A program made the position numbers and the translations under genes. The notes beneath the pieces were generated by a model, which did not search any database, had not been told where the DNA came from, and saw only the letters and a list, made by a program, of their open reading frames with translations. 64,000 bases of DNA from Symbiodinium sp. CCMP2592 (Eukaryota; Sar; Dinophyceae; Suessiales; Symbiodiniaceae): the NCBI GenBank assembly GCA_905221615.1, contig CAJNDT010005312.1:507489-571488 (forward strand). The letters run 5' to 3'. This document shows, one piece after another, positions 31,209 to 60,100 of the stretch; position 1 is the stretch's first letter, and each line of letters begins with the position of its first letter.

Positions 31209-31310
31209 TGGGTGGTTGTCAAAATTTGGGACATTTTTTGTTCCCCATTATAGTACGGCACCTAATATTTAGGATACCCCGAAAGGGACCATAGTTTTGA
31301 CAACTGCCCA
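31209..31310. mobile_element. full-length foldback element of the 'TGGGTGGTTGTC' family
   Basis: The left end 'tgggtggttgtcaaaattt' pairs with the right end 'agttttgacaactgccca'. The centre contains 'tacggcacctaatatttagg', which recurs as 'tacggcacctattatttagg' in the element at 59,619. It is non-coding. Confidence 0.8.
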
Positions 31311-34608: not shown

Positions 34609-37600
34609 ATGGGGAGCAGCAAGCGGGCCGAAGACGAAAAGGATCCGGAGATTGATGCTCGGCTGAACGTTTGTTTGGGGTCACTGGGCTCCAGATGTCG
34701 GACTCCGTGCTCGCTCACTCGCTGCTCCTTCCAGCACCTTTTCCCGACTGCCCTTGCAAGGCCCGTCCCCGCAAACGCTCCACAGCATCTTGGAGATGCT
34801 CGGAGTGCCGGCCGAAGAGCTCACCGGAGGTCCCGAGCAGTGGCGAGGAGTCCACTTCCGTCAGGACGGTTGTGTGTGGAAGCTGGATCTAGATGGGAGA
34901 CCCATCAGCGGCAGACTGGATCCTCTTGCGAATCTCACAAGCCTGAGGATTCTATATCTCTCGGACACCGGAGTAACCGGAGACTTGCAGGCTTTGGGCG
35001 GGATGGGCGAGCTGCAGCAGCTACGGCTGGATGGTACGAACGTGGCCGGTGACCTGACACCACTGTCCAAGCTCACCAATCTGAAGCTGCTTGTGCTCAA
35101 GAACACCGGCGTAACCGGAGATTTGCGGGCTTTGGCCGGGATGAGCGATATGCAGGTACTATGGTTGCATGGTACCAAGGTGGCCGGTGACCTGAAACCA
35201 CTTTCCACCCTCACGAAGCTGAAGCAGCTATTTCTTTCGGACACCGGCGTAACGGGAGACTTGCACGACTTGGGCGGGATGGGCGAGCTGCAATATCTAA
35301 GGCTGGATGGTACGAAGGTGGCAGGTGATCTGCAACCGCTTTCCACCCTCACTGACACCACTGTCCAAGCTCACCAAGCTGAAGGAGCTTGCGCTCAAGA
35401 ACACCGGCATAACCGGAGATTTGCGGGCTTTGGGCGAGATGCGCGAGCTGCAGAAGCTATGGCTGCACGGTACCAAAGTGGCCGGTCAACTGCAACCACT
35501 CTCCAAGCTCATCGAGCTGAGGCAGCTATTTCTTTCGGACACCGGCGTAACGGGAGACTTGCACGACTTGGGCGGGATGGGCGAGCTGCAATATCTATGG
35601 CTGGATGGTACGAAAGTGGCAGGTGGTCTGCAACCGCTTTCCACCCTCACGAAGCTGAAGGAGCTCTTGCTCCAGAAATCCGGAGTCACCGGAGACTTGC
35701 AGGCTTTGGGTGGGATGAGCGATATGCAGAAGCTATCGTTGCATGGTACCAAGGTGGCTGGTGACCTGAAATCACTCTCCAAGCTTACGAAGCTAACGCA
35801 GCTATATCTCTCGGACACCGGATTAACCGGAGACTTGCAGGCTTTGGGCGGGATGGGCGAGCTGCATCATCTATGGTTGGATGGTACGAACGTGGCCGGT
35901 GACCTGACACCACTGTCCAAGCTCACCAAGCTGAAGGAGCTCTTGCTGACGAACACCGGCGTAACCGGAGACTTGCAGGCTTTGGGCGGGATGGGCGAGC
36001 TGCAGAAGCTGTGGTTGGATGGTACGCACGTGGCCGGTGACCTGACACCACTGTCCACCCTCACGAAGCTGAACAAGCTCTTGCTGAAGAACACCGGCGT
36101 AACCGGAGATTTGCGGGCTTTGGGCGAGATGCGCGAGCTGCAGAAGCTATGGCTGCATGGTACGAAGGTGGCCGGCGACCTGAAACCGCTCTCCAAGATC
36201 ACGAAGCTGAAGGAGCTGTTTCTTGCGGACACCGGCGTAACCGGAGACTTGCAGGCTTTGGGCGGGATGGGCGAGCTGCAGAAGCTGTGGTTGGATGGTA
36301 CGAAGGTGGCCGGTGACCTGCAAGCGCTTTCCACCCTCACGAAGCTGAAGGAGCTCTTGGTGAAGAACACCGGCGTAACCGGAGATTTGCGGGCTTTGGG
36401 CGGGATGGGTGAGCTGCAGAAGCTATCGCTGGATAGCACCAAGGTAAGCGGTAACTTGGAATCTCTTGCCAACATGGCGGAGCTGCACCGTTTGATCATA
36501 GCAAATACCGCCGTGGAGGGCCCTATCACCAAGCTAATCCATCTGACGAGTCTAGAAGAGGCACGGGCACGAGATGTGTTGCCTGTACGTAGCATTGCCA
36601 TGTTTTCTCGGGCCCTAGTCCGCGGCCGCACCCCTGATCGTCCGTCTTGGAGGCCGATCTGAGATTCACGCACGTTACTGGGCGCTTGACATCCGCCTGG
36701 CGCGGCCAACTCCTGCAGCTCCACACGCTCAAGCTCCAAGACCGGGCCTCAGAGCAAGGCCCCATGTACATCCCTTCGCCTCTGAGCATATTTTGTCCTG
36801 GGCGCGTCCCGATGAAGCCGAGGGGAGCCGGGTGAACTTCCTGCCCGTCGGAAGTGACCTCGAAGACCTCCGAGCGACCTTCTTCACCAACGAGACCCGC
36901 CAGCTCCTTCCAGCTCTTGCAAACTTGGATGCTGCCTGGCTGCGCTTCAGGGATTGGATGGGCTTGGCCAACACTCGCAAGTCGATGCTTTTTTTGAAAA
37001 CAAGGTCCCAAGGTAGAAAGTGAATCTTTTGATGTTTCTTGCATCCAAGGTCTCGCTGTGTCCGCTGGATGGCCCTGTGCAGAATCTGTTGGAGCCCTTC
37101 TCGTTCGCGCAACGCTTGGCTTCGATCCGCGCCAATGGCGCGAACCTTTGCGGCAGTTTGGTGAAGGGCTGCTTGCAGCAGGTAGACGTGGACGGCGAGC
37201 ACTACGGGCAACATTGTGGGATACGCGAGCGTGGCTTACAGAGCTCCCTGCAAGGGTTGGAGTTGGCGGGCAACCAGATCCACCGTGTCGAGGGCATCCC
37301 GGCCAACGTCTATGTCTCCTTGGCGAACAACTCGGAGATGTACGTTGACGTGAAAGCCTTGCACAACTTGCAGCTTGGCAGGTTCAAAACGCATCTTTTG
37401 CGTGGTATCTATCGAACCCTGCCCTGGATTGTCCTGGGCCGCGTACATCATATAATGTTTTGCGCACGTATATTTCGCACGGCCATACCGGGCCTGTACG
37501 ATGGTTTTATCTTCGGTTATATGACAGCTACAGGGCATACAGGCTATTTGTTCCAAACAAACGTATATTTTAGAATTGTCTTCATGCCTGGCTAATACGT

Positions 37601-40806: not shown

Positions 40807-40808
<2 letters not shown>

Positions 40809-40905
40809 CCTAGACCCCCAACAACCTACAAAATAGTCGGTTCTAATTTAAGAACCTGGGTTTGGGGCTAAATTTGAAAATAACTCGGTTCTCTCTTGAA
40901 GAACC
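40807..40905 (+). repeat. left terminal inverted repeat and subterminal palindromes
   Basis: The terminal TACCTAGACCC is followed by AACCTA at 40,823 and by two palindromes, GGTTCTAATTTAAGAACC (40,839) and GGTTCTCTCTTGAAGAACC (40,887). A third half-site 'ttgaagaaccca' lies near 41,022. Confidence 0.7.
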
Positions 40906-41494
40906 TGGTTTCTGGTTATGACCCTAATTTCTGAGATCTTGGTCTGGTTCGGGGTTGTAATTTAAGGCATTCTGTGAGGAAGCTTGGCATCCTCGAGCGA
41001 TGATTTGCGATCCGCTGCTCTTGAAGAACCCATTACAGTCTGAACTTATCTAGATATTCTGAAGCAAACAGGTGTCGCTAGCTGCCACACAGCTTGATAT
41101 GATCATGCACATGAGCGCCTTCGATCCATTAAAGTAGAGAGGGTGCTATGAGAAAGAAGCTGGTGCGAAATTCGAGAGCCAACAACTCTAGCCTTCACCC
41201 CACTAATTGAGAATGCCACACCCCGTGGATTTGCAGACTTCTCAAGTGATGTTAAAAATCTACCGACAGCTCTCGTAATTATATCATGGCGAGCGAGCCA
41301 ACGGCCATTTTGCCACGGCTGGCGACAAATGCCGCTGCATGGTCCAGCGCTCATCTTCTCCTCTCGTTCGGGCAGTATGTGTATCGCATGTGCACAAGCT
41401 TCCTTCCGACAACTCGATCGTTGTGATCTCAAGGATTTTGCGGGTCTATATAGGTTGAAGGGATTCACGGGGCACATTTTGTGTCCTTGAAGCC

Positions 41495-44400
41495 ATGGCC
41501 GAGTGTTCGCTTGACGGTCTAGCGGCCGAATGGGATGCCATCGAAAGCTTACGTGAGGGTCTGCGCAGAGGTCAGAACCTGATCGTGGAAGTATCGGAAA
41601 AGCAAGTGGATATCAAGATGCCGAAGAAGCACAGATTCCTGCTTTTGCCGATACTCAATCGCATGCGGGAAGCCAACAAGAAACTACCGAGTATCGAGGC
41701 GTTTCGATGCGAGGTTCGATTGCTCATGCAACTGAACAAGCGAGACCCAACAGAGGAGGATATTCAGAAGTCTGCTTGGCTAATCCGTAAGAACTGCGGT
41801 TTCATCAAGATGAAATGTCGACGTCAAGAGGTGTCGAATGCTGCCTGGCTTAAAAATAGATGGTCCTGGCAATCGCGCAATGTCAGACTACATATGTAGC
41901 TGGAATGACCTGTATATCTGCGGTTAAATGTAACGATTTACTTTTCGATCCTTTCTATAAACACGATCAAGGATCCCGACTTCCAAGAATTGTGCTTGGC
42001 CTTGGACCCCGACTTGCAGGAGTTGGGGGGCTTTGGGGGTGGGTGTGTTTAGTACACACACAGTGTGGAGTCCCATGCTGTATAGAAAAAACATCGTATA
42101 TAGTATTTGATATAGTTGTGGAGGGCATCGTGGACCAGATCAACGAGTCCCTTCAGCGACGACGTGCCGCGAAGGCGGCAACCGCAGCTGAGGACTTGAG
42201 TACATATATCGTCATGTATTCTCCGATTCATGTATGGGTCTGGATAAGGGTCCACTTTATTTTCTTTGTGCATGGAAGGACCCCCAAGTCGAGAGCGATG
42301 AGGATGCTTACGACGACGATGGTGAGGACGATTGCAGTGACCTCGCCAGTCACCTGTCTGACTTTCAGGCGGCGTGTGAGGGGTCAGAGCAGACGGATGA
42401 GTATGCCGACTCGTCCGATGTGGGCATGGCTCCCCTGCAGATCGTTGAGGTGCCGGACGAGGGCAGTGTGCCGGCAGAGGACAGTGGGCCGGCACCGGTT
42501 GCGTGTCCACCCGTGGAAGCCGTGGAAGTGCCAAACGAGAACAGTGGGCCGGGTCCATGCGTGAAAGTGCCGAACGAGAACAGTGGGCCGGGAGCAGTCG
42601 TAACAGTGCCAGTTAAGACAACCTTTGTCCCTGGGGTGGAGCCGACTGCAAGTGACAATCTTAGTTAAGTTTCCTCGTGAGGTTCAGTTCGCTTGGAGTC
42701 ATTTCTTTGATTGGGTATTCGGATCACCGGGTCGAGGCGAGAAGGCTTTGAAAGAACAGCGCATCCAGCAGATCAAAGATCGATTGGAGATGTTTCTTCC
42801 TTGCAGATTCGAGTATAAGTGGAAGCATTCTGGTGGCATATTTTTTATAATCGATCGATCGACTATATATCCCATGTATCACGTACATAACCGATCATCA
42901 GGTTGCGTGCGAAGCGGGACAGGATCACCAGTCCTGTGGCCAAGCCGGCTGAGCCGGCTGCTGCTGCTGCTGCTGTGGTACCGACAGGCGAGAAGGTATA
43001 GTGAGAGATGCTTGTTATGTATTTCTTCCACAATTAATGGGTATGTATGTATGTAGTATATATACTGTTCCAGAACGATCGAAAAAAGAGCACGAGAGAG
43101 ATAGATATACAGAGAGAACCGAGGGTCCAAAAAGTAAGTGATGAAAAATGTGTTTGTCCAAAGGTTGTATGGATGCTGCCGACACGCTGCCTTACGATAT
43201 GGATGCTGCTGACACCCCGCCTGAGCAGACAAGTCATGATAGTCCCAGCCGAAGTGTTGAGCATCGCAGATTGGAGTACCAGGGCAAGGGCCAGGTCACC
43301 AAGCCATTGCCTGGCAACCCCCCTTCGCCTGAAACCTTCAGCAGTAAGACGCCCGAGGTTTTCACCCCTGACAAGGAGCGGAGTTTAGAGGATATAGCTA
43401 ATATATTATATATATGGTTGGCTACGGATGCAATTGTATCGATCCTTGTATAAAGGATCGATACAATTGCTTGTGTGTATTTAGAAAGGGTTTAAGGAAC
43501 TTCGGGTTTCAGGTTATATAGGGGTTTATAGGGTTCCCGCTTATTTTGCTAGTGCTTTTAGAAACTTGTTTCGTGCAGGAGCCATTGGAGACGGACCCAA
43601 CGGTCGATAGGATCGCTCAGCTCAAGTTGAAGCAGCTGAGGAAGGAGAAGGACGGTCGTGGAACTCGCGGCCGTGGTGGCGGTCGAGGGGGCCGTGGACG
43701 CGGCCGCGGCCGCGGAGGCCCTTCATCTGCCGATGCGGCAGCGGATGGCGAGGCTGCTGAAGCCGACTACTCGGTGGAGGAGTGGATGGCTTGGTATGAA
43801 GCGCCAGGCGATTACTGGTACGAGACGCCCAAAAAGGCATCTAAGCGTGAGCCCGTGACGGAGCCGGAGAGCACCATCAAGGAGCGCAAGAGCACAAAGA
43901 ACCCGTCCAAGGCCGACGACCCGAAGAGCGACATGGAGCCGAAGACCAACCGAAAGCGAAAGGAGCCGACGAGCGAGGGCGACGTGGAGCCGAAGACCAA
44001 CAGAAAGCGCAAGGAGCCGACGATCGACGGCGAAGTGGAGCCGAAGACCAAGTCGAAGGACACGAAGAGCAAGCCCAAGGCTAAGGCTAAGGCTAAGGGT
44101 AGGGCTTCCAAGAATGCGAAGTCCGCAGATGAGGCGCCTGTGGCAAAGCGCAAGAGGTTGCCGGATTGTGCGGGCTTCAGCAACAAGAGGGCTCAAGCAG
44201 CCAACGGCGAGCCTACTTTCGCCAGGCGGTACAGGCCGGCCACGCCTTTCAAGGCGAAGCGGTGGGAGGCAATCAGAAATTGCTTCCGGTCGCAGATCAA
44301 GCCCCAGATTTCGGGCAGCCCCAGCCTTTACGAGGATATGGGCTATATGCTATATGTTTTTTTATGCAAGGGATATGTTCTAAGTCTGTAGCTTATACAG

Positions 44401-44610
44401 TTGGGTATATATGTTAATCAATCCATTCTGTGTGGGTTTTCGTTTTACCACAACAACCTAGCTATACGCCCGAAGGACCCCTTTTGGATGTATTGTATGA
44501 CGCAGATGCAGAAAACGAAAGCGAAGATCGACGAGGACAACGTGGTCAGCCATGTGGAGAAGTGCTGCAAGAAGTACTTGCAGCAGGTCATCGCCCCAAG
44601 CAAGAAGTGA
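41495..44610 (+). CDS. element gene A: RGG/KR-rich nuclear-type protein (multi-exon)
   Basis: It starts at the ATG at 41,495 (MAECSLDGLAAEWDAI), about 25 bases after 'gggcacattttgtgtcc'. The first exon ends after KNCGFIKMKC near 41,840. Further exons in order are: IKDPDFQELCLALDPDLQ (41,960); VVEGIVDQINESLQRRR (42,116); an acidic exon, VESDEDAYDDDGED, with repeated VPNENSGPG (42,284-42,660); a WSHFFDWVFGSPGRG exon (42,690-42,840); a Pro/Ala exon (42,905-43,000); a 43,160-43,400 exon; and a large exon from about 43,560 with an RGG box (RGRGGGRGGRGRGRGRGG) and three EPKTNRKRKEP-like repeats. The last exon has KDPFWMYCMTQMQKTKAK and stops at 44,610. An RNA- or chromatin-binding role is inferred from composition only. 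Exon borders are approximate. Confidence 0.6.
43430..43470 (+). other. perfect 18-bp hairpin in an intron of gene A
   Basis: gcaattgtatcgatcctt (43,430-43,447), a five-base loop gtata, then the exact reverse complement (43,453-43,470). It contains two ATCGAT sites. It is too short for a typical microRNA precursor. Confidence 0.85.
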
Positions 44611-45240
44611 GTTTTGTGTGGTTCGGCAGCTTTGCCCAACAATGAACTTCGATGGCAAATAGGTTTTTGCACTGCTACTGTGCACGAGCTTTTCGAGCGT
44701 AGGTGTGCCGGTTGTGGTTGGGATGCAAGTTGATGAAAGTCAGCTTGTGGGGTGACAACGACACCCCCCCGCGTAGCATGGGCTTGTGCTTAGAGGAGTG
44801 GTGCAGTCCTATAGTTTCGAGCAATGCCACATCGAAGCCCTTGATGATCACAATCGTCTGAACGTTGTACTTGTATTATGTTGACTCTATATATAACAGC
44901 TTGACAACATCCCCAGTCCAATGGTAAGGTATGTCGGTGGTATACCAAGAATATACAGTACAGGGTTCAGGTGTTCTGTATTTATTTTCGACCTACATTA
45001 CTTTCAGAGGTTTCTCAAAACTTTGGCTATAGCCTTCATAAAGATCTGATAGAAGCTCTACAAAGGCCTGAATTACCTGTAGCATGCATTGCTCGGGATG
45101 CTGTCCAAGGACGCCTGCACTTAGTTCCGCAGCTTGCAAGGAGCTGAAAAGGGTTCTCAGTTATACTTCATCGTATATACGGACAAATCACTTCAGCATG
45201 GTTCTTTCCCGAGATGACGTGTATATCATGGTTGGCCTTT
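44611..45240. other. spacer between element genes A and B, no gene seen
   Basis: The stretch has only short frames, a run of C near 44,765 and no recognisable exon. It may hold the 3' UTR of gene A and 5' introns of the next gene. Confidence 0.4.
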
Positions 45241-45244
45241 TCCG

Positions 45245-45725
45245 CAATGTGCTCTGGCTGCATAGATCGACAGAATTTAAAACTGTCGTTCATAGCCTGA
45301 CGGCTCTTCGTCCAGACTGGGGCATCCACGAAAATCGGGGAGCCTACCATATCGCTTTTGCTTCAACACGCATTCGACAGTTCAGCAATGCAGCTCGACA
45401 AGCTTTCCATGCATCACGACCTTTTAAAGCTCTCCTCGCCCTGCCCAGGCCAGAGCCAAAGCGAAGTCCACGCGCGGGAACAAATGGAAGGTGAGGCTGG
45501 ATCTCCTGCCCAAGAAACGTATCACCGGCCACGTGTTATTGCCTTTGGCATGAACATGTTCATGTGAGAAGCTGGCAGTTTGGCTTTTTTGTGGAGTTAG
45601 CCGTGAGCCCTCTTTCGGATGAGATATGGATCAAGGTCCGAGAGCTTCCGCCATGTATATATGCTTCGATTTTTGGCAGGGCTTGTTTCAATTTAAGAAC
45701 TGCGGCCTGCTATTGGGTTCTGGGC
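45245..45725 (+). pseudogene. element protein fragment with frame breaks (gene B, upstream part)
   Basis: One frame reads TEFKTVVHSLTALRPDWG, then GAYHIAFAS, then PFKALLALPRPE, ending near 45,465. The convincing sequence then moves to a second frame (NKWKVRLDLLPKKRITGHVLLPLA, about 45,480-45,547). It then moves to a third (RSWQFGFFVELAVSPLSDE, then IWIKVRELPPCIY) until about 45,725. Two breaks within 100 bp, with no splice signals of normal spacing, suggest small indels in a decaying gene or assembly errors. I remember similar sentences in many Symbiodiniaceae protein models, which is unverified. The function is unknown. Confidence 0.5.
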
Positions 45726-46010
45726 TGATCAGGTGACTTTCAGCTCGTTTGCTGTTTTCGCTGCAATGGTGAGCCTTGACCGACTTGTGTACGCACTGAA
45801 GTGCCTCGACGTTCCGAAGGAGCCCCGATTGCCTATCACGTAATGCACTTCGGCTAATCCGAACATTAGCCCAGCCCCTATCTAAGCGTAGCCTTGCTCT
45901 GGCCCAGGAGTTTGTGCTGTGCCTGCTGCTCCTCATTTTCAGCTACACGGAAGATGAACTGGTCCAGGCTGGCTACATGTGTGTGCTTTCGAGCCATGTA
46001 ACCCGGCAGT

Positions 46011-48603
46011 TTGGAAGCTGCAACCACCAAGGATTATGATTGCTTGGAGTTTTATGCTGGTCGTGCTCGAACAACCGCTGCTATGAGAAACAAATCCCTC
46101 AAAGCTGCACGGTTTGACAAGAAGTACAATGCACCCGACCTACGACACCGCTCCAACTTTATGGATCTGACCCATGCTTCAGGTTTCCTGCACCTCGGTG
46201 TAAATACACAGTGTAAGTTCTAATATACATACATATATCAACCCTTCTAAACCCTAAACTGCTCGCCCCTCTGAGGCTCGCCTGCTACTTCATCCTCCGT
46301 GGCCGCCCTGAAAATTTCTTTGTAATGTTCGCAGTGATGTGCTCTTCGTTCTGCAAGATGAACAGTGGTACTTCCAAGCGAAGCAAGTGTAACAGCCTGG
46401 GCTACGATGCTTATGTGTCCGTCCGTACCAGCAACATGTTGCTCGAGAGGCCAGGTACAGTTACATGTTTCGTCCATACTCGCCCACGAAAGTGTCTTAA
46501 ACCCATTTAAAGCACTGAACCCCCTATATAAACCCTCCCAATTTAGGCCTCGATCATACGTATTTGAACAACAACAGAAGCAGCCCAGTGCAGGTCCGTC
46601 CTCCTGATCTATCTGGTCACTGGGCTGGGAGGAACCTGGTTCGTGGAGCAGCCGAATCAATCTGTTCTCGAATATTACCCCAGTTTCCGCAAGATGATTA
46701 TGGATCTCTTCAATGTTCGGGGACGAGATGCTGCCACTTGATTTCTTGGGTTAAACATGCTGAAGGGTAGATGTAGGAACCTGCGCTGGGTCCAAAGTGT
46801 CATGGGGTAGGAGCTTTAGCAATGCGCTATAGTAGACTAAGGTATACGACACCAAATGGTGGATGTGCCACTACGGTTCAGCGACTCCCAAAAGACACTA
46901 TGCCTATGCCAACACTGATCAAATACACTTGCTGAACCGAGGCAAGCTCTACATGAAGGTGTGGTCCAGGTCCAAAAACGGAGAATCGAAAACAACAACA
47001 CGAAAGCACAATGCCCAGGGAAAGGAGTGCTACCAAGGCACGCCCGAGTTACGTGCCACGGAGTGCCCCGGTTGTTATCGTTGTTCATTACATTGGAATA
47101 TAGCATTCTCTAGCTTAAGGCATGGTTGGTTTTAGGGTGCTTTCCAGGCCTGTGTTTACAGGTAAATCGTCGATGGTTGGCTATCTATTTTTTGTATCAT
47201 GTATATGTCTTGCTGCTATAAGAGTTAAGTAGGTGGTACTGAAGATAGTCATTTCTCGATAGGTATGTGGGTGGGCTGGTAAGTAGAGATGGTTTAGGTT
47301 ATTCTATATAAGGGGAATGATGGAAGGGTGTTGTTCTGCTTCGGTTTGAAGGGAAGCAGGGCGCACAAGCCACATAGTTTCAAGTATGTAGTTGTGAACC
47401 AAAACTTAATCCCCGATCGATCCACATAATCCCCCCGGCTTTGTTGCGATCAATCCGCTGTACAGCTCACTGCGCCAAAGCTTCTTCGTCGTGTCGATGT
47501 AGAACCCCAAAAGAAGCAAAGCCAAAGCCCACACCCTTCGCCTAACCGATTGGATTCAGGGAATTAACTAGTATACGGCTTTTTGAATTGGGTTTAGACA
47601 TGGTATAAGCTATAACACGTAGAGAACTATAGGACCGAACTTAAGGACTTTGTGTATACAACGCGAAAGCCCTCAAGACTGATTCAAAGCCCGACTCCCG
47701 CCGTCTGTGTGGTATGTTACATATATATGTTCTATATTTTTAGAAATATATATATATATATATATAGTAATGTAGCTGGGTAGGCCCAAGGGTTACTTAG
47801 GTGGGTGTGTGCAGGGTTACCTACTGTCCCGAAAACATACTCGCTCCCCAACAACCAGGTATGATCTGAAATACCAGTGTCTGTGTTTAATGTTGCAAAC
47901 AAACACTATTTCTCAGAATCTTGAGGCTAATCAAGGGGCAAATTAAGTAGATCGACCGATAGCAAGAAATGGGTGCAATCTCTGTACATATCTCCACATA
48001 CAACCATATATAGAACCAAAGGTTGGGTATCTGTCCCATAGCCATGTTGAAGACACGGTAGAGAGTATATATAGTTAAAAGTATATATATGTTAACTATA
48101 GATCAGAATCTTCTATCTATGGGACAGATACCCAACCTTTGGTTATTGTCCTACATATATATATATATACACTTTATATAAGCCATACAAAGGATCGAGA
48201 CGGTCTAAAACCACCGGCTACATAGTTGCTGCATTCACATTATTGCATCGTGTATATATCATATATTTACATACAATATAAAAGTCATTCCCCTTATGCT
48301 TACGCATATCTAAATTGTGTATAGGTGGAAAACCTAAAGCCCGCAACCCTCAGCCCCTAAATCATCACCAATGACCCAATAACTTGCCCAAGCCAAGGGA
48401 GTATCCTCCCCGCTTCGCCTGCTACTTGGCCCACCACTGCGAGCTCCTCAAGGCTACGGCACAGGGACAACCACAAATGCCTGATGAAGTACCATCTGCT
48501 CGAACGACTTTTGCTTCGATGCGGTACAGTAGCCAGGGTGACTTGAGAAGTTCCTCAAGAGTGGAAGGAGTTGGTACCCAATGCCTTCCCTGGTGCTGCT
48601 TAG
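46011..48603 (+). CDS. element gene B: protein with C5-cytosine-methyltransferase-like motifs (multi-exon)
   Basis: The exon from about 46,033 starts KDYDCLEFYAGRARTTAAM; LEFYAG resembles motif I (LxLFxG) of C5-DNA methyltransferases. The next exon (46,322-46,455) has MCSSFCKMNSG at 46,337 on. Its Cys-x-x-Phe spacing matches the catalytic PCQxFS of motif IV, but the preceding Pro is Met. The third exon (about 46,575-46,720) has GGTWFVEQPNQSVLEYYP, comparable to the ENV/ENP of motif VI. The fourth (46,850-47,080) reads WWMCHYGSATPKRHYAYANT. After a 1.3-kb intron containing a foldback element, the last exons (48,395-48,603) read EYPPRFACYLAHHCELLKAT and end VPQEWKELVPNAFPGAA with TAG at 48,601. 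The motif order I-IV-VI is right, but the assignment is an inference. The start is not determined. Confidence 0.5.
47735..47768. repeat. TA microsatellite in an intron of gene B
   Basis: TA repeat following 'tatatatgttctatatttttaga'-type AT-rich sequence; no coding content. Confidence 0.85.
48014..48144. mobile_element. 131-bp foldback element with 28-bp perfect ends inside the giant element
   Basis: The left arm, 48,014-48,041 (aaccaaaggttgggtatctg and on), is the exact reverse complement of 48,117-48,144. The 75-bp centre is AT-rich and non-coding. It lies in the long intron of gene B, so it is a nested insertion. Confidence 0.9.
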
Positions 48604-48850
48604 CTGGCTGTGCCTGATGTCTTTCTAGAACAGAACGACCTCAGCCTGTCACCCAGCAACCCCTTAGAATCGAAATGCCACGGCAATCGGCACAATGCAG
48701 CTAGCTTTTGGCTTTTGGTCTCAGGGCTCAGGAATTGTGCTTCCCAATAGGATTCTTGGGGTGCTTTTTGTCGCTGTTTTGAACCATTCCTGAGCTTTTT
48801 AGCACGATTTAAGTGGTTTTGAGCTAGTCTGGTACTAGGCAACCCAAGCT

Positions 48851-49012
48851 AACCCGTATATAACCCGTATTTACCCGAATATAACCCGCATATGACCCGT
48901 ATATAACCCGTATATGGTCATAGTAGGTTTACAACCTACTTTTCCCAACCCGTATTTAAAGCGTATTTAACCCATATTTAACGCGTATAAACCCGTATTT
49001 GAAATATGGGTT
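48851..49012. repeat. AACCCGTATAT tandem repeat, 11-12 bp units
   Basis: About a dozen degenerate copies of aacccgtatat/aacccgtattt lie in a row. They are interrupted by the small hairpin gtaggtttacaacctac near 48,923 and end in the imperfect palindrome aacccgtatttgaaatatgggtt. It separates genes B and C. Confidence 0.85.
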
Positions 49013-49310
49013 TTTTCCCTGCCTGGGTAGTTACCAGAAACGTGCCCCGAAGTGCTTTCAAGGCCTGAGATACCAAACAAATTCGTTGCAACAGTGTGTG
49101 AATACACACAGGATGTTCCAGCATTGCCGAAAACACCGTGTTCCCAGCCACTGCAAGTGTTGATGTTGTGACGACCATGGGCGGGTGAGTGCTGCTGGCT
49201 TCAAAGACAATGAACGTGCTCTTCGCAGGTCCTCGAGCAGCAAGCCAGTAGCACACTTTGGTGTCCTCCTGCAAGAAGGATGGCTGTAGCTTCCAAGCAA
49301 TGGAGTTCCA

Positions 49311-52300
49311 CGACTCTGGATGCAGGGATAGCTTCTGTAGATACAGAGGCAAACCTAAGACTGATGGAGGAGGAGGAGGCACGACTCCAACAAGAGCTCC
49401 AGGAGACATGACAGCGCAGATGTGATTCGATATGTGTGTCTATAGACGTATGGTAGCTATAGTGTACACAACATGCCATGTTATCTAGATTGCACTGGAA
49501 GTAAAGGACCTGGAGGCTGCTGGCTCGATCCCCGAGCATGACACTGCCACTTGGTATGAATCCTGCCTCTCGACGCAGGCAAGATTAGGTTCAATGTGTT
49601 AGTTTGTATATATGCAGATAAGGTTATCGATGAGTATGCGCCCCCTTCGGAAGCTGCGACCCTTCCTGCAACTAGGCTTGAACAACCATCCCCAAAATCC
49701 CCGCGCCCCTGCAGCAAAGTCTCAGTCCGAGTCAACATAACATGTTTGTGCCCAGGCAACGACACAGGAGCTCGAGGACGCTGGGCTGTCTACAGGCCCA
49801 ACCACCGGTCCTGAAGAGACTGACGCCATCGATGTTGATGCTCCTTGCCTGCAGCTTCCCGAAAACTATATACAATGACGTCCCGCGTGTGTATAGGATG
49901 TCTGATATTCAGGCACTGTGATGGTGTCAATCTCAGGACATAGATGATGATGAAGTGCAAGCTTTCTTTGGGTCTATGACATTGACTGTTGTCAAAGCCG
50001 AGCCCTCTGGGGAGAGTCCGGTAAAGGGTGCATCCCAGCCCCCTGGCGACGGCAGCGCAGGGTTGCCCTCCAGCCCGAAAGCCGCCCCATCCGTTGATCC
50101 CAAGGACCCCGAAACCTCTAGGCCAATCGCGACCCCTGCCAGAGCATCTAGTGCGCCGGTTCCAGTGAAAATCGAAAGCAAGCTCAAGCTCACCAAGGAG
50201 CAGACCCGCCAGGACCAGTAATCACTTGTATTTGTTGGGGTACTATATATCTAGGGTAGACTTCGGTGTTATACATCTCTATATTAGAAGAAAAGTCCTT
50301 ACCGAAATTACATCATGTGTGGTTATACAAGACTTGAGGTGATGTGTAAAACCCTCCCTGGTCTGTGTTTCTCTTTCTCTCTCTTTCTCACTCTCTCTCC
50401 CTCCATCTCTCTCTCTCTCTCTCTCTCTCGCTGCCCTGTCCGGTGCCTTTCTTTCTTCTATATAAGTAGTCTCGACATAAAGTACATACACATGTGAGTC
50501 TTGGTTTGAGGTGGGACAGATTTGTTGCCAGGTTGAAGATGCACAGTGCAATTTTAAAGGTGTATAAGGTTTAGTCTCCCATCGGACCCCAAAGGATCTA
50601 TTCAAATTATTATCTACCCTCTATATATATATATACATATATTAAAGCCTTTATATAAACCCATATATCCCCAAAAGCGGATATATCAGTACACCTTCCT
50701 TATGTAGCATACATAAACCCTTCACGGCATCCCTGAAGCTTGGCCCTCAGCCTGCATCCGCCTCGGAGGAGAAACTGCTCCTGGCCGCCAGGAGCAGACT
50801 TAACAGGATGATGAAGCCGCACACCAAGAAGAAGGATCTCGAGGCTCCAGAGTATGCTAAGAAGCATTGGAAGGATGGGAACAAAACGGAGATGACTCTC
50901 TTGCTTCGCGACTGCAACTTTTGCAAGGACATGTCAGCGCTTCTGCATTCTCTCAGGTGTGTGTATGTATGTGTCGTCATTTAGCAGTGACTCTCATCAA
51001 CATCTTTGCAGGACGTGTTCTTGCAAAGGCTAGAGAAGATCGTGACGAAAAAAGAAAAGTACACGATAAAGCTCGACGAGGGCCGGTATTCAGCTGCTGA
51101 GATGAAGACCGAGCTCAAGTGGTCCCAGCATCACACTTAGCTGATGTGTTTATATAAACTAAATATGTGTGGACATTACAGGTCTGCGATGTAGACAGTG
51201 CAGCCAATTTACACATATATCCCCGGGGGGCCTCAGGCAAAGGATTGACGGAGCCATTCGCCGGTGCAAAGCCTTGGGCGAAAGCCATTGCCGGCACGGG
51301 CCCAGGAGTGTTCACGAGGTTTCGGGTATTTTTAGAATCAGATTATATATTGCTCGATCTGAACCAATTAAGGCGAAATTGCTATGACGACGTGGAGGAG
51401 TACTGGGTCACGGTCAGGGAGACAGGGGTTAGGAAGGAATCCGTGTCCGTTGAAGAGAAACAGACGGACATTGGCAAAGCCTCTATGTCTCAAACAGACT
51501 CGTACGATGCAGTCCATATCAGGATCTCGAAAGGTTCAATGTTTCCTAAACTTAGGCTTCTGACCCAGTGGAGATCCCGGAGGGCTCCTTCAAAGGAGCG
51601 ACTGCCTACCAGAAGAGCAAGGCCGCTGAAGCCTCCCTGGCTTCTGGCTCTTCCGGTGCTTCTGCCAACAAGGATCCGTCGGTTTGTTTGTGTTTGAGTT
51701 GCTTGCCCCATTTACGTACCCCTACATAGGTAGTTACCACCCCCGACAATAAAATACAGTTCCAACCTGCCGAACCAGACCAGCACTATCCTCCAGAAGT
51801 TCTTGGAAGACCTGATGGCCAAGCTGGGTAAAATCCGAGGGCTCGCCAAGGACCTAGCCAAGAACTACCACGGTGATGATTCCAAGAAGCTACACATCTG
51901 AAGCATTAGTTGACTTTGGTGATATAATTAACCCTGCCCCAGACGCTTAAACTATGTGTAGATCCCTTTATATATTGTAGGCCCAAAGATCTTTCCCATC
52001 TACCCTATCTAGAGAAACTGTTACTTTGCATAGTTTGTAATCTCAGCCCGGAGCCGAAAGCTGTCCATGCCGACAAAGGCACATCGAGAACCTGGACGGA
52101 TGGGTGCAAAAACTTGAGGAACAACACGAAGCTTGTCAGTTGGTGCTGAGCCAGGGTGAGCTGAACAACTTCAACACAGAGCATCCAGAGACAATTAGAT
52201 CGCGTGACGTTTTTGTTGAACATCATATATGATCTGTAGTTTCTGTCTTGTCGTAAACAAAGGTTCAAGCAGAAGGCTGAAGCCCAGATGAAGACCACCA

Positions 52301-52722
52301 CATTTGTGTTCGGTTCTCGGTGCTGGCTCTAGCATCCTCTTGCTGCTAGTGCTGGCATGTCTATATGTACACAAGCCATTAAAGCAATTCTGAGGTGTAG
52401 CAAAGCCGTGGCGGCAGAAACGCGCATCCGGACCGATGTTTTAGCTTCCTGTATTGGGTTATGCAGGGTTATATGTAGCGCTCCTGTTCCTGGTAGGTCA
52501 AAGGTTAGGGCTGATAGGCTTCACGATGCAGGTTTGCTTTACAATAGAGTAGAACGGATCCTCCGTAGTGAATTTTTTTTACAATGAAGCCAACCCAAAC
52601 CTACATCATGCAGGAATGCCAAGAAGTACCTGGACAAGGTGGACAAGGACAGCACCAACAAGCGAGCCCCGCCCAAGTCAAACACTCAGCAGTCGAAGCC
52701 GAAGGCACAAAAGAAGAAGTAG
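49311..52722 (+). CDS. element gene C: charged multi-exon protein of unknown function
   Basis: Exons are recognised by amino-acid composition and mutually compatible ends. They are: LDAGIASVDTEANLRLMEEEE (49,311 on); AQATTQELEDAGLSTGP (49,752 on); an acidic, Pro/Ser-rich exon DDDEVQAFFGSM (49,936-50,221); KLLLAARSRLNRMMKPHTKK and KHWKDGNKTEMTLLLRDC (about 50,730-50,930); DVFLQRLEKIVTKKEKYT (51,011-51,125); RIDGAIRRCKALGESHCR (51,238 on); LNQLRRNCYDDVEEYWVTVR (51,363-51,480); SFKGATAYQKSKAAEASL (51,578 on); a helical exon LQKFLEDLMAKLGKIRGLAK (51,794-51,899); a second helical exon IENLDGWVQKLEEQHEACQL (52,086-52,190); and NAKKYLDKVDKDSTNKRA ending in lysines with TAG at 52,720. The protein is hydrophilic and rich in Lys and Glu, with no membrane segment. 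It may be a DNA- or RNA-binding partner encoded by the element. The start is uncertain. Confidence 0.5.
50378..50432. repeat. CT microsatellite in gene C
   Basis: CTCT-rich run in a non-coding interval between exons. Confidence 0.9.
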
Positions 52723-54156
52723 GGCCATTTTCCCAATTTGGGTATGCAACCGTGCGGGCGATCCTGCACGTTGGGGTGATGTTCCCTGTGCAAAATCATA
52801 ACCGGCCTTCCCGGAAATGCGAGACTGGCTGCAGCGCTGCGGCCATGCCTCGATCACTTATGGGCAATGTAGGGTCTCGGGGTCTTTATATATGGGTTTA
52901 TGGTTGGACCAGTTTCGGGAAGGTTTCTGGCTCAGTATGTACAGCTCTCCTTCTTTATCCAAAGAAGTATTACTTAAGACTATATTGGCCACTCTATATA
53001 TATGTATATCTAGAACCCCAGCCAAACCCAGGCTTAGGTAAGATCGGCTATTCGAGTCAATGCTAGTGCACAGGGAATCCAACATCATTTTACAATTAAA
53101 GACTTGTTCCGAAAGGGGACGTCGATGCCGTGTGGTTTTGCGCCACAAGCTTTCGATGACTCTGAGCGCTACATGTGCGAGGGGCTACCAAAATCACGTT
53201 GCCAATTTAATCGTGCTGCACCCACATATAGTTGTTGCAGTTTTGCGGCACCCTTACACTATATAGCAGCACTGTGCTTCCAAATTCCTGGGCCAGGTCC
53301 CAAAGCTGGGCTTGCTGCTCGCGGCTTTTCCGCTGAGATCGGAGAAGGAGCCTGGACCTTGGGGTGATCGGCTTCGTTTCGAAAGCTCGCAGCATGAGGG
53401 TGCTTACTGTGTTTACCGAAGGCTGTTTGGCCCCAGTACATCCCAGGGCAATGGTCCAAGCACTGACCGTTTTTGTTGCTGCCGCCTTGGGCCATGAGCT
53501 GTGAGTCGGCGGAGGATGAACTCCTAGACCTACTCACGAAAACACCGCCCCGTTGCTGGAGTGAATATGTAGGCGAATCTCAGCAAACCTGCATGTTGAA
53601 TGTTGCACCGATATTATGATTCAACATCTATCTTCCGCACATTTGCACGTGGGTATCTGAGGCTACTGATGGTCCATTTCCATGGAACGAAGCCTGTGGG
53701 AGCTCTACGTGCGTGTCTGGGGCATTGACTACTGTCTCTTCGCGACCCAAACTTCTGCAAGAACCGCCAGCGAGACAATCAAAGCCTATAGATGTGAGTA
53801 TTTGATTGATAATCCCCGGGTTAGACATCAAACAGAACAGTTGATATCTGAGAGCCATGCTCGAGAACTTCCGCTGGCTTTCCGCCTTCCTCGCAAAGGT
53901 CTCGTGGCTGGCAGTGTTTTGCAGCATGCGCTTTGTGTTACGGGTACACCCAGGATGTGGATATTTGGTCCGAATTATTCTTCTCCATGTGTCCCAGGAA
54001 GCCTATGGACCCGCTATGCTGGAAAGCTGCTTTAATCAGCATGCATCAGAGCAACTCGTTAGCAGAGCTTGAAAGACAATCTACATATATAGATGGTCTA
54101 CATATAGCGACAAGAGAGAGCCAGTGAAGGATTGAACACAACAAGAGAGCAAGGGA

Positions 54157-54209
<53 letters not shown>

Positions 54210-54234
54210 CGTGAGAAAATTGAGGTCGGCCTGA
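52723..54234. other. spacer or unresolved 5' exons of gene D
   Basis: Fragments such as VPKGDVDAVWFCATSF (about 53,110-53,160) and a 71-codon Leu/Phe-rich frame (53,857-54,072) could be exons of gene D or a separate decayed gene, but no consistent frame could be followed. A GA microsatellite ends the interval. Confidence 0.3.
54160..54210. repeat. GA microsatellite before gene D
   Basis: About 50 bases of GA repeats with few interruptions. Confidence 0.9.
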
Positions 54235-56537
54235 ATGTCGAAACGCCTCGGCGGCGACACCGTCACTGAAAGCACGACCTCAGCCGACGATGTGTTTTTC
54301 ACTTGGTGTACAGGTCATTCAAGTATCCACCTTCCGGAAACACAAGAACCTTCAAAAGAAAGGTTCCTTCATGCTGAGTTTTCTGGAGCTGTTCAGTGAT
54401 GCAACAAAGAATGGCAGAGTCTGTTTGCAAGCACCATGTTCTCACATCGCTGATCGATTAGCATGCCCCTGCTTTTGAAGTTATATATTAGAATGTCCCT
54501 ACGCCGAGGCTTCATGCTCGGCGGCGGTTCGTGCTGCGCAACGAGTGGTTGCCGACATCGGCGAGAAAGCTGCTGCGTCCAGTGGGGGACTGCTTGAGTT
54601 GTCGAAGTGCCGAGAGAAGGATGCCGAGAGAGATACACATCGTCTTTTTGCCAAAAAGCTTCATTTAAGCTTGGAGAAGTGGGTCCCTCTTTCTTCTGTG
54701 AGGCACGAGAAGAAACACTTGACTGTCCTGAGATTACGTGACTGGCTTCAATTCTTAGTCGACAAGAAGTGCTGGCATATCGTCACAGGCCTGGTCCGCA
54801 GGGACGCAGCCCGCGAGAGGGCGATTCTCAAGTCCTTTTGGGAAAAGTACCGATGCACTCACGAGCACCATCCGATTTATGAGATGGAGAGGCAGGGCTT
54901 GCTCTCTCTGGAGCGCACAGCCCCTCTTCTTTACCACGGTGATGAAGGACGAGGTCGGCGAAGAACCCCGTTTTTAGTCACGAGCTGGTCTTCGATGCTT
55001 GGCCGTGGATGTGCGCCTGCGGATAAGTATCGGAAGAAGCATGGAATCCGAAACGAGTTCATCAAACATCGTACAAACTTCAGAGGGCACTCGTTCACGA
55101 ACAGATTCTTTCAGGCAACAGAGCAGCAATAAATGTGCCAGAATTTTCGCGTTTGTTTAGTATAGCTCATGCTGTTTTAACGGAGCGAAGACAAATTTAT
55201 CACTATATAGGACAAAGAGAAAAAGGTCGCCGATGTTTATGTGGTCTAAACAAGAAGCCGGGGATTTGTTGTTTTGTGTGGGGTGTATTCTGTGAATTCA
55301 GACCTAAACCCTGAAGCCGCTTATTCTAGAATCCTCGATCTGCAAATTTTCAACAACAGATCCTTGACCTCAGAAATCCTAGGCTGGATGGCCGAAGAAA
55401 GTGATCGAGGCCGAGGGGTGCGTGCAGTTGCTGCTTCAGCACTGCAAAGACGAGAACGATTTCGTTTTGCATCAGGGTGTTTCTGATGGACACAGCGGCG
55501 AGAAGTTTCATGCTTGCATCCTTGCTGTCACTGGTGATTGGCCCTGGCTAATCAAATCTGGGAATTTGGGAAGAAGCTTTAATCATGTGGTCAAAAAGAC
55601 AAAAGAGGTGGCGGATCCAGAGGGGATCTGTCACCTCTGTCAGGCAGGGCAGAGGGGGCACAGCTTCGAACACTTCCACACGAGAGACCCATCGTGGCTT
55701 CAGACATTCTTGGTCCGAAGCCCCTTCTTGGATCCTAGAAGCCCGCTCGCGGACCTTCCTCACCCACCGGGGGCTGCGGCCTCCAACTTCCGATACGACC
55801 TGTGGCATTGTTGTCACTTAGGTGTGTGCAAAGCACTGGCTGGATCTGCATTGGCACTCTTCAGTGAAACCTTCGATGGTCGATCCAAGGATGCGCGCTT
55901 TGAAGCGCTTTCGGAGCACTACATGAATTGGTGTGCCCAGCATCGCCGGCAACCGCTTTTGACCAAGATCATCAAAGAGACGGTGTCCTGGGATAACAAT
56001 AACACTTATCCCTATGCCACGTGGTACAAAGGGTCGTTGTCCACCACGATGTGTGAGTACATCGCTTCATTCACGCAAGATGCAGAATTTGAAGACGACC
56101 TTTTGACAAAGTGCGGTGAAGCCGCGCGCGCTATGAACGCATTCCTTTCTGGGCTTTATCAAAGCGACCTATTTCTGGACCCTACCACCGCAAAGAGAAT
56201 TGGGGAATACGGCCTACGATTTCTTCGGCGATACTACTCGTGTGCTACACAAGCACATCAGCAGCAAAGATGCTTGTTTTTGCTCCTCCCCAAATTCCAT
56301 TGTGTGCAGCATATCTGTCTTCAGGATCTAGTGCTGGCCTCCCAGAAGGCCGAATGGATTGTCAACCCCTTATGCTACTCCGTTCAACTTGCTGAAGATT
56401 ACATTGGCAGAAATTCAAGAACCAGCAGGCATGTGCACCCATCTACGGTTGTACAGCGGATTGCTCAGCGGCATTTGCAGGCTGCATTCACGAAGTACGT
56501 GGAAGCGCAGTACTTAGTAGTCGACGACGACAGCTAG
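54235..56537 (+). CDS. element gene D: transposase-like protein (multi-exon)
   Basis: The first exons are short and their start is uncertain: an ATG at 54,235 (MSKRLGGDTVTESTTSADD) or the frame at 54,290 with STFRKHKNLQKKGSFMLSFL. A large exon of about 54,520-55,130 and another from about 55,395 to the stop at 56,537 give roughly 600 residues. Exon features: YHGDEGRGRRRTPFLV with an Asp at 54,941; a Cys pair, ICHLCQAGQRG (55,627 on); YDLWHCCHLGVCKAL with an Asp at 55,797; SLSTTMCEYI (56,036 on); and LPKFHCVQHICLQD (56,287 on). The D-x-x-H-x-x-x-LGV and K-F-H-x-x-x-H patterns resemble CACTA/tnp2-type DDE transposases, in which the first Asp lies in a DG motif before a PF/WP stretch. I cannot place the third acidic residue. 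The gene ends about 515 bp before the right end of the element. Confidence 0.5.
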
Positions 56538-57052
56538 CAAAGATGACAGCACAAATCGAGATTTTAAGGATGACACCACACATCGAGATAGGTAGAAATC
56601 GAGGTGTTTCGCAATGTTTGAGATTCCTGTCACTCCAGTGCTGTCTTGAGCTCCCGGCATGGCACGAGATGGAGATCGCCAAGATGCCAAACATCAGCGG
56701 GGGCTTTCGAGGGTTCGCAGGGGTCTTGGGCGGGGCTTTGGCTTTCGGATGTTTATGCTTGGAGTCGTCGGGGGATTTCGCTGGTTTTATTCTGCAAGGA
56801 TTTCGGTATCTTCAGGGCCCTTATCGAGAGTTAAGGTCTTCCGGCGGGGTTTTGAAAGGCATCTACATTCGAGGCTGTTCTTCGGAAGTTCAGAGGATGT
56901 TGGCCTGTGTCGTTTAATACATGAACTATGCAAACAGCAGCTTTTCCAAGCATGTGCCAAAACCCGGTTTCCAAGCAAAACCCGGTTCTCCTCTAAAGAA
57001 CCTAGTTAATTTTCATTACCTACAATTTATTAGGTTCTAGTGGGTCTAGGTA
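56538..57052 (+). repeat. right end of the giant element with subterminal palindrome and inverted repeat
   Basis: Non-coding DNA after gene D. AAAACCCGGTTT near 56,969, the palindrome GGTTCTCCTCTAAAGAACC (56,984-57,002) and the terminal GGGTCTAGGTA (57,042-57,052) mirror the left end. A few open frames (56,543-57,009) overlap one another and lack family features. Confidence 0.65.
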
Positions 57053-57141: not shown

Positions 57142-60100
57142 GCAGATGGTATCGCTGTGTCCTGCGTCGTGTGCTACGGGCTGCTAATCCCCAGCTTCCT
57201 GGCGTACCTCATGTTGAAGCAGCACGTGGCTTTGGCCCCCAGCCGACGCTTCGTCAGCCACGTCGCCAAGAAGAAGGGCGACGTCACGGTCTGGGTTTTA
57301 CCCGTGGAGGAGTCCGAGAAGCCCGAGCCGCACCAGGACAGGGTGGGAACCGGGTGGCATGATTCCAAACCAGTTGCCAATGCTTAGATATTTTTCGAGT
57401 TCCTTCCAACACGACACGATGGAGGAGCTGAAGAGTAGGAGCCTCCTGGCCGCGGCGGTCGCCCGCAGCTGCATTTACTTCTCAGGCGCCGTCCGAGTCC
57501 AGCTGCAGGACGAGCACCTGAGTCTTGGCTGCCACCGGTTTTATTGAAGGAACAACCCGCTGAACTGTCGGAAGTCCGTCGCCCTTCAGCTGAGGATCCT
57601 CCGACCGCAGGAGCAAGGAGGCCACGAGCACGACGTGAACTTGGACGCCCTTGGCTCGAACGACCGTACGTGACGTACGTGCATATAGTGGGGCCGTGGT
57701 GCACTGCAGGCGAGCAGCTTCGTTTGGACAGCCCTGGGGAACAAGGGCGATGCAGATCTTCGGCGTTGCCAAGCTCTTGAGAGGCCGTGGCTTTTGAACC
57801 TTCATCCCTTCCCCGACCCAGACAGGGACGCTCCGGGTCCGGAGTTTGCTTATGAGGGCTCTTCGACTTGCTGTCCGCCTGCATGAAGTCACCGGTCTAA
57901 GTGAAGCGGACGCCTGCACAGAGGATGCTGAAGGAGCGGATGTACTTGAAGAGGTCGCCTCCTCCGACAGATGCTTGGCTTGAGTACGTGTGTGATGGTT
58001 CCTCGCACCTCCGGTCTAATAAAGCCGCAGCTGCATGCAAAAGATAGAGGCATTCAAAAGATCTTGCAATGACATGTTTGCCGGCCCCATGGGCGTGTCC
58101 AGCATGAGTGTCTCAGGAATCGTTTCCGGTGCAAAGGAGCTCTTCGTCAAATATGCACCTGAGACAACTTCAGAAATTAAAGTATTGGGTCAGAAAAGCA
58201 GCCTGTCTGAGCAAAATGCACGCCTTACATAGTGTATGTAGACCGATCCGCAGGTCGGAGTCCGGGGAGCTTACCGAGAGAGAGAGGGCGTGCTTCGACT
58301 GCCGAGGCAGCGTGCCAAAACGTGTGGTTCGAGATCGCCCCTCGCTTCACCATCTTGGTCTTATTGGCTGTAAACTCAACTTTTCAACTTTTGGGGGTTC
58401 TTATAAGGTAGTCGATTCTGAAAGTTTCAACGTTTATTTCCTTGGTTTTAGGGCCAGTGAGTGGTTGCTTTCTTAGCCAATCCTAGAATCCTGTCCTGTG
58501 ATTTGTCATTATCTAGAGGCATCCAAAACTGAGAACGGAGGGAGTCCCAAGCAGACATTAGGAGGGAGTTCATGATGGACCGTATATATTCACGCTGGCC
58601 AATGGTTGAGCACAAGGTTTTTCCACGTCAATGTTTTGGGGAGGATGCAGACCGCTTGTATTTACTGAATTTGCTTCGGAAGCCAGAATAACAGCATTTC
58701 CGCTTGTCCTAAGTTTCTGGATCGTCGAGTTTGATTTTGCTTTACGTGTTGTTCGGGTCACACAGGAGTGTTTGAAGTCCGTTGCTGTCCCGCAAGATTC
58801 AAGAAATCTGAGACTCATGAACTGTTGATCTGCTCTTTTCGTGAGATCTCTAAGCATTGAGGCCATGAGGATCGTGGCCGTTGCTTTGGTGGCCGCACCT
58901 TGGCTGAAAGGGTCGCAAGGCTGTTCGAGGCTTTCGAGAGGACCCCACAAAAGGATGTTTTCGTCCCACCTCGGGCTCCTGCATGCATGCGAGGCCGTCG
59001 GGAGCGAGAATGGCCTGGAGTTCACCCTGGGCTTCACCTTGTGCACCTCGCTGGCCATCGCCACCATCCGACCCTTCCGGCAGCACCAGGCGATTGTGCT
59101 TTCGGAGAGTTGTGTTTAAGTATGTGCGTCGCATCGTGTATGGTGTGAGAGGGACAGCTGCAAGAGGAGGGACCAGACGCGTGATTCTCTCGACTTTTTG
59201 CTTGAGCATTTTGAGCTGATCTGCAGTCGGTCATATCTTACACAGCTGCAGGGCTGGAGAGTAAATCGATGTAAAACGACTCGAAGGATCGTGGCGACTT
59301 CGCATCCGCTCGCAGGGCAACAACTACATACTACATCACCCCCCATGCTCTCTTGATCTTTCGAAGATCGCCTTTCCTGCTCCCGTGCAGGTCAACGACT
59401 TGCAGAGCTTCTGCTTCTTCTGCTCCCCGGCCGTAGTTTCATTAGCCATGCCGTTCAGCATGGATCAGGTCCAGCACCGAATTGTAGATATAGGAATCCG
59501 TGGAAAAGGCAGCGGCAGTTGAAGCTTCGACTGTGAAACGATCCGTGCCCAGGTCTGGCGATCGCGGCCTTCGCCTTCTCGACAGGCGAGGCCAAAGGAT
59601 GCCCCGAAGACCTTCGGATGGGTGGTTGTCGAAATTAGGATCCCTTTTTGGGTCCTTATTATGATACGGCACCTATTATTTAGGGTATCCAAAAAGGGAC
59701 CCTAATTTTGACAACTACCCACATGAGCGTTTCCGCGTGTATCCGCGGTGGCAGAGGCCGCGTGCTGACGGCCCGTGCCGCTCTGCTGGCGCCCTGCGTG
59801 ATGGCGGCCGCGCAGGTGTTGAAGCCAGGCGCAGAGCGCATGTGTGTCGAAACGATCTCGGGACCTCTACTTTCCATGCCTGCTTGCTGCCTGCTTGCAT
59901 AGTTCACCGTAGTTCAGCTTATTTGTCGTTGTTTGTCGGTTGGAGTTGTTTGTTTTTGTTGCGGTTTCCTGTACCTGTGCAGCAATCTGCAGCCGGTAGC
60001 CGTAGATAGTCTCATAAACCCCGAAGGCACAACTACATGACATCGGATTTTGATTCTGCACCAGCCTGAGCCATAAGCCCAAAAGACGCATGAGCAGGAA

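Follow-up and report, generated by a model that had tools for sequence, protein, structure and literature searches.

The dinoflagellate Symbiodinium sp. CCMP2592 carries a 16.2-kb transposable element that has moved recently and whose boundaries are established. It lies in a 64,000-nucleotide stretch of contig CAJNDT010005312.1, referred to here as the window (positions 507,489 to 571,488 of the forward strand; G000:C4916:507,489-571,488 in the assembly searched), to the right of a host leucine-rich repeat open reading frame (ORF) at 35,301-36,662. Four plus-strand coding blocks, termed genes A to D, are enclosed by imperfect terminal inverted repeats, and a nearly identical copy of the whole unit is found elsewhere in the genome. 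There is little doubt that the element is a recently active, probably autonomous cut-and-paste DNA transposon of a large dinoflagellate family, with gene D encoding a DDE enzyme of the RAG1/Transib/CMC type.

Ends, copies and insertion sites

The sequence TACCTAGACCC occurs exactly twice in the window, at 40,807-40,817 on the plus strand and at 57,042-57,052 on the minus strand, and 28 of the 36 outermost bases pair when counted from the TA. GGTTCT-N-AGAACC palindromes are found three times near the two ends, in mirror orientation, against 0.06 expected in the window, and of the element's 23 GGTTCT/AGAACC hexamers, seven are found no more than about 100 bp from an end. A first-pass annotation, made from the letters of the window alone, had described these ends, the pairing and the palindromes, and all three descriptions were correct.

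A search of the genome assembly (1.098 Gb in 5,383 contigs) with the left end returned a 99% match on contig C2702, where the whole element aligns to positions 602,253-618,711 with 98.5% identity, gaps included. The match starts and stops within TA tracts, with no homology beyond them, and the ends are thus true element ends. Copy 2 proper occupies C2702:602,300-618,690, with its two ends 16.4 kb apart, and the window copy C4916:548,297-564,538. A global alignment of the two contains 55 substitutions; a single 31-bp patch accounts for 15, and the other 40 correspond to a divergence of about 0.25%. The window flanks (12.8 and 6.9 kb) resemble those of copy 2 only in scattered stretches of 55-132 bp. 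The first-pass annotation had proposed a single mobile element and had staked that claim in advance on a second locus with both ends, which the C2702 copy provides. A third copy, on C1121, has the A, B and C genes in the same order, with 69-87% identity in local matches, and is interrupted by the contig end.

In both complete copies, TA is followed by CC at each end, and copy 2 reads CCTAAACCC at its left end. The element proper runs from CC to GG, and the TA on either side is most likely the target dinucleotide (Table 1). Both window-type copies are inserted in TA tracts. Such tracts occupy 0.6% of 141 kb outside the window's element (a stretch that includes copies 2 and 3); other subfamilies are also found at single TA sites. 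No empty insertion site was found with the flanks as queries, the right flank of the window being unique and that of the g3 copy a repeat (C2119:19128-19726, high-copy and partly tandem, with 366 matches on many contigs).

The left ends examined are those of both complete copies, of the C1121 copy and of a fragment on C668. This fragment (C668:185679-185787, minus strand) matches the left end over 109 bp (79%) and adjoins a TA tract; the 30 kb examined contain nothing else of the element, and the fragment is possibly a solo end or a small non-autonomous derivative. Within the window itself, an array at 24330-25717 contains TACCAAGACCC 11 times at a spacing of 87-217 bp, one mismatch away from the element end.

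The transposase and its family

Gene D is a transposase by predicted fold and motifs. The predicted structure of a close relative has the RNase-H fold of the RAG1/Transib type, and the transposases among the structural matches listed for it are RAG1, RAGL, Transib, the P element and Hermes. In 35 relatives, residues D296, C327-x2-C330, H549-x3-H553 and E581, to which putative catalytic roles can be assigned, are invariant or at least 90% conserved. The GDW, DxWH/DxFH and EDxxG motifs are present at all 30 genome loci compared (L021-L050, including the window's own two), and C..C.AG at 29 of them. Relative to the two nearest subfamilies, the nonsynonymous divergence (Ka) of the D exons is 0.25-0.35, with saturated synonymous divergence (Ks).

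Sequence models fail to recognize the protein. A Pfam search with the 35 relatives gave no transposase model at E<=1 among the 25 of 30 matched families listed, a sequence search of the PDB with the D family gave no meaningful match, and a two-pattern scan of bacterial and archaeal genomes confirmed no transposase relative. The named protein relatives come from Symbiodinium, Durusdinium and Cladocopium. Between C and D, window positions 53852-54070 resemble the N-terminus of relatives P0003 and P0005 (KFGFTHNPIWRW...LYGY) only across frame breaks and may be a decayed exon; we take its appearance to be GIY-YIG-like.

The predicted relative P0001 gave at least 72 matches in the assembly, or at least 63 loci once exons were merged, a lower bound given that 70 of 1,106 candidates were scored. 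In 48 of these, a single stop-free open frame of 570-692 residues contains the match; ten have two exons as in the window, and five have a stop inside the match. Near-identical sets are spread over different contigs, and within such sets homology stops about 0.5-0.6 kb past the transposase. Right ends were compared for 19 copies and could be read in 17: TACC is present in 16, and GA precedes CC in one (C779). In the two others (g6), homology broke inside TA tracts; there, TACCTTAACC is present according to a search for TACC-type motifs, which is biased by its pattern. By eye, the right ends of other subfamilies contain motifs resembling AACC, GGTT or AGAACC. Seven subfamilies break at a common terminal motif, with flanks that differ in all cases except C966 and C5085. 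The common flanks of this pair probably reflect one locus assembled twice, so that there are fewer than 63 independent insertions. The family is multi-copy, largely intact and recently mobile.

Companion genes

The A-B-D gene order recurs at dozens of loci in the assembly, as expected from the first-pass annotation, which had made A and B part of the element. At 48 of the 63 loci, the transposase is preceded on its own strand by the first exon of A, 9.9-24.3 kb away, where chance would give 0.05. These account for 48 of the 55 A first-exon matches, and none is found on the wrong side or strand within 30 kb. B is upstream at 31 loci (0.06 expected), at 5.8-11.1 kb in 30 of them; the 31st (C3396, 14.9 kb) is doubtful. 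One B gene within 20 kb on the other side of a transposase probably belongs to a neighboring element on C4939. Altogether, 51 loci have A or B, 27 have both and 12 have neither; the A and B counts are lower bounds, with 64 of 2179 and 126 of 1453 candidates scored, respectively. Relatives of B and D also agree in the length of their longest contig, which is 3,805,030 for Symbiodinium sp. CCMP2592 and 893,720 for S. natans, and so do relatives of A and D for CCMP2456 (114,618).

Most of the 110 B-like loci entered are not beside any listed transposase, and the B family is therefore also found elsewhere or beside unscored copies. Near-identical B-like frames (41% to P0049) on C558, C961, C4955, C711, C946 and other contigs, with no listed transposase adjoining, may mark another mobile family with the same gene.

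Selection tests on the exons examined indicate that the coding blocks of all four genes, whose exon structures are homology-based predictions, are real. In comparison with the C1121 copy, the first B exon has a Ka/Ks of about 0.36 and the other three have 0.13-0.20; the ratio is 0.33 for the later A exon and 0.02-0.13 for the three C segments. The A stretches 42,280-42,665 and 43,600-44,345 have no match in C1121, the second of these in any of three frames. The first-pass annotation had counted four multi-exon genes on the plus strand; the blocks and their strand stand, but C and D may be one gene, since by eye C-like sequence is fused to D in the predicted relatives P0001, P0002, P0040 and P0041. 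Domain searches with the raw ORFs of A and C and with two A relatives gave no significant match, and the A relatives have only weak, chance-like matches in NCBIfam; four of them are labelled ANK3.

Gene B is at best guess a C5-cytosine methyltransferase-like enzyme, judging from its motifs. Its relatives have, in order, AGxG, an acidic motif, [KM]C[SA]SF, EQP and TxKRHY, an arrangement that we take to resemble motifs I, IV (PC), VI (ENV) and VIII of C5-cytosine methyltransferases. C89 (in KC[SA]SF or MCSSF), E143-Q-P and TxKRHY are invariant in six relatives, and AGxG is present in four of the five that cover it, P0054 having AGKAN. Motif I in the window reads LEFYAGRAR, without the second glycine, and in a profile comparison with Escherichia coli Dcm only motif I aligns (p 0.039, probability 1.3%; p 0.34-0.72 for four other E. 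coli proteins). An AlphaFold model of the relative P0050 was discarded for its low confidence score (pLDDT 41.5). The motif order thus agrees with the methyltransferase-like gene of the first-pass annotation, but with an unusable model and a non-significant Dcm alignment limited to motif I, the assignment stays a best guess. A profile search of the PDB gave no match, six relatives have no Pfam DNA methyltransferase (DNMT) match, and NCBIfam and Pfam gave the B relatives weak, chance-like matches only. Their UniRef labels are weak evidence because they conflict, P0049 being a 'Methyltransferase' and P0052 a lipid desaturase. The observed/expected CpG ratio carries no signal, at 0.77 in the element and 0.81 in the rest of the window.

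Table 1. Features of the element in the window.
Feature	Position	Strand	Evidence
Transposable element proper, CC...GG, 16,242 bp	40809..57050	+	C2702 copy homologous over span, with unrelated flanks
TA adjoining left end, presumed target-site copy	40807..40808	.	TACC at 4/4 ends of two copies and 16/17 readable family right ends
TA adjoining right end, presumed target-site copy	57051..57052	.	TACC at ends of two copies and family right ends
Left terminal inverted repeat, imperfect	40809..40842	+	28/36 vs right end, counted from TA
Right terminal inverted repeat, imperfect	57017..57050	-	28/36 vs left end
Left subterminal palindromes GGTTCT..AGAACC, candidate transposase-binding sites	40839..40905 (40839-40856, 40887-40905)	+	3 in window vs 0.06 expected
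Right subterminal palindrome GGTTCT..AGAACC	56984..57002	+	Same palindrome count; hexamers clustered at ends
Gene A, first coding exon, 115 codons	41495..41839	+	No stops in C1121, Ka 0.26, Ks saturated; upstream of transposase at 48/63 loci
Gene A, probable middle exon, low-complexity and FARRYRP blocks	43600..44345	+	Open frame; in composite that finds Symbiodinium relatives
Gene A, later conserved exon, KDPFWMYC...	44470..44600	+	Ka 0.33, Ks 1.01 vs C1121; second frame matches more weakly
Gene B exon, motif-I-like LEFYAG	46035..46199	+	Ka 0.14, Ks 0.39 vs C1121
Gene B exon, MCSSF (PCQ-like)	46268..46459	+	Ka 0.14, Ks 1.11 vs C1121
Gene B exon, WFVEQP (ENV-like)	46595..46735	+	Ka 0.11, Ks 0.86 vs C1121
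Gene B exon, TPKRHYAYAN	46836..47075	+	Ka 0.22, Ks 1.09 vs C1121
Gene C exon	50742..50960	+	Ka 0.16, Ks 1.19 vs C1121, 61 codons; other frames with stops or lower identity
Gene C exon	51021..51128	+	Ka 0.18, Ks 2.3 vs C1121, 36 codons
Gene C exon region, 17 aligned codons	52330..52445	+	Ka 0.03, Ks 1.25 vs C1121
Gene D exon with HGDEGRG, start position provisional	54479..55114	+	67% identity to P0001; Ka 0.25, Ks saturated vs L021
Gene D intron, GC...AG	55115..55382	+	In-frame join NRFFQ|AGWPKK, cf. NRFLQAGWPKK in P0001
Gene D exon with GDW, C(2)C, DLWH, H(3)H, EDYIG and stop	55383..56537	+	63% identity to P0001; without stop in copy 2

Elsewhere in the window, positions 61557-63242 form a single open frame of 561 residues with repeats of the FNAxISACEKxGxWxxAL type that look pentatricopeptide-like by eye. 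A dispersed repeat of about 110 bp, with 72-89% identity between copies and in both orientations, is found at 59618-59726 and 31205-31314 of the window and at C668:170622-170736 and C668:184205-184313; its copies are possibly introners or miniature elements.

Alternative explanations and known systems

In the mechanism that we propose, D would bind the GGTTCT/AGAACC repeats that cluster close to the two ends, cleave the DNA at CC...GG and integrate the 16-kb unit at TA dinucleotides, sometimes within TA tracts, presumably with duplication of the TA. A, B and C are stable parts of the element, kept by purifying selection. By analogy with fungal transposons that carry TET/JBP genes and Symbiodinium retrotransposons that carry DNMT genes, B would probably methylate element or host DNA, thereby protecting the element from silencing or regulating the expression of its genes, and A and C probably contribute to the binding of DNA or the assembly of the complex.

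Three other explanations were considered. The assembly has duplicate-looking loci such as C966 and C5085, with their common right flank, as would be expected had an ordinary gene cluster been copied by segmental duplication or in assembly instead of moving by transposition. This is scarcely conceivable for copies 1 and 2 with unrelated DNA on both sides and for subfamilies that, that pair apart, break at one terminal motif in differing flanks. Likewise, a length of 16 kb, terminal inverted repeats and several genes would be at home in an endogenous virus or a Polinton-like element. Such an origin is very unlikely: D has a relative with a RAG1-type predicted fold, and in a two-pattern scan of 2.9 million viral contigs, 35 stretches matched a pattern and none was confirmed as a transposase relative. 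Ten element ORFs (of 68 of at least 80 residues) gave no significant Pfam match; one of them had a sub-threshold Birna_RdRp_C hit (E 0.097).

The mobile unit could also be the transposase alone, with A, B and C as host genes captured by chance, and indeed no A is listed at 15 of the 63 loci and no B at 32. These absences are weak, since the A and B searches scored only part of their candidates, and the chance expectations and near-absence of genes on the wrong side given above run counter to fortuitous capture. A, B and C moreover lie between both ends in two complete copies and past the left end in the third, and chance capture is accordingly most improbable. The favored explanation is thus the transposon that carries its companions with it.

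This transposon family could become a native gene-delivery tool for dinoflagellates, which are reported to be hard to transform (PMC6380556). It adds a distant branch to the group that gave rise to the V(D)J recombinase, and it allows many uncharacterized proteins of these families in dinoflagellates to be interpreted as products of transposon genes. With a methyltransferase-like gene inside a transposon, it can be asked directly whether such elements govern their own DNA modification.

There seem to be few descriptions of autonomous DNA transposons in dinoflagellates: a term search of a 2024 review (PMC11453091) found 'DNA transposon' once and 'transposase' zero times. Searches of the open PMC literature listed no paper whose title concerns a RAG1/CACTA-like or methyltransferase-bearing DNA transposon of dinoflagellates. 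Weighing against novelty, passages in earlier papers mention transposase sequences recovered from most Symbiodiniaceae genomes (PMC11114475), the use of transposase ORFs from Symbiodinium DNA transposons (PMC5890265) and, in one cited sentence of the latter, DNMT-encoding DNA transposons of marine viruses. The proposal that these RAG1-fold DNA transposons form a new lineage at superfamily level, so far seen only in dinoflagellates, which moves as a four-gene unit and encodes its own DNA-methyltransferase-like enzyme and so has epigenetic control built in, appears to us evenly balanced.

Several known elements share features with this one. Dinoflagellate introners, as described in parts of PMC9860276 and PMC10522408, are short, non-autonomous inverted-repeat elements in introns, with 4-bp duplications in S. 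microadriaticum; they resemble the element in their inverted repeats and its proposed intron location, but at 16.2 kb, with a transposase gene and a TA target, it is not an introner. SymbioLINE-Dnmt and SymbioDIRS-Dnmt3 are likewise mobile, in related algae, and carry a cytosine methyltransferase (PMC5890265, in part). These retrotransposons use a reverse transcriptase, which was absent from the ten element ORFs scanned with Pfam, whereas the present element has terminal inverted repeats and a transposase, and six B relatives lack a Pfam DNMT match. The marine-virus elements, to judge from their one-sentence mention, are also DNA transposons with a methyltransferase gene and differ in being viral.

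The first-pass annotation could match the element to no named superfamily. This holds in so far as no sequence model recognizes D, but predicted fold and motifs put the lineage close to the CMCT (RAG1/Transib/EnSpm) group, which includes EnSpm/CACTA, Mirage, Chapaev, Transib, Plavaka, ESTA and Lanisha. According to the part of PMC12730594 consulted, these transposases have the DDE order with C(2)C and H(3)H between the second D and the E, which D shares along with the RAG1/Transib-like predicted fold. Target duplications in the group are 2-5 bp, a range that would include the presumed TA target at the ends of the two copies and at most readable right ends; the group's termini are usually, though not always, 5'-CA..TG-3', whereas those of the element are CC..GG, and the element differs further in its companion genes and in having no detectable similarity to Pfam or PDB sequences. 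By description, there is a parallel with ESTA and the other fungal transposons that carry TET/JBP genes (same source): these also combine a RAG1-like transposase, with TA target duplications in ESTA, and a DNA-modification enzyme as companion, which is a TET/JBP dioxygenase in the fungi and a methyltransferase-like protein in the dinoflagellate.
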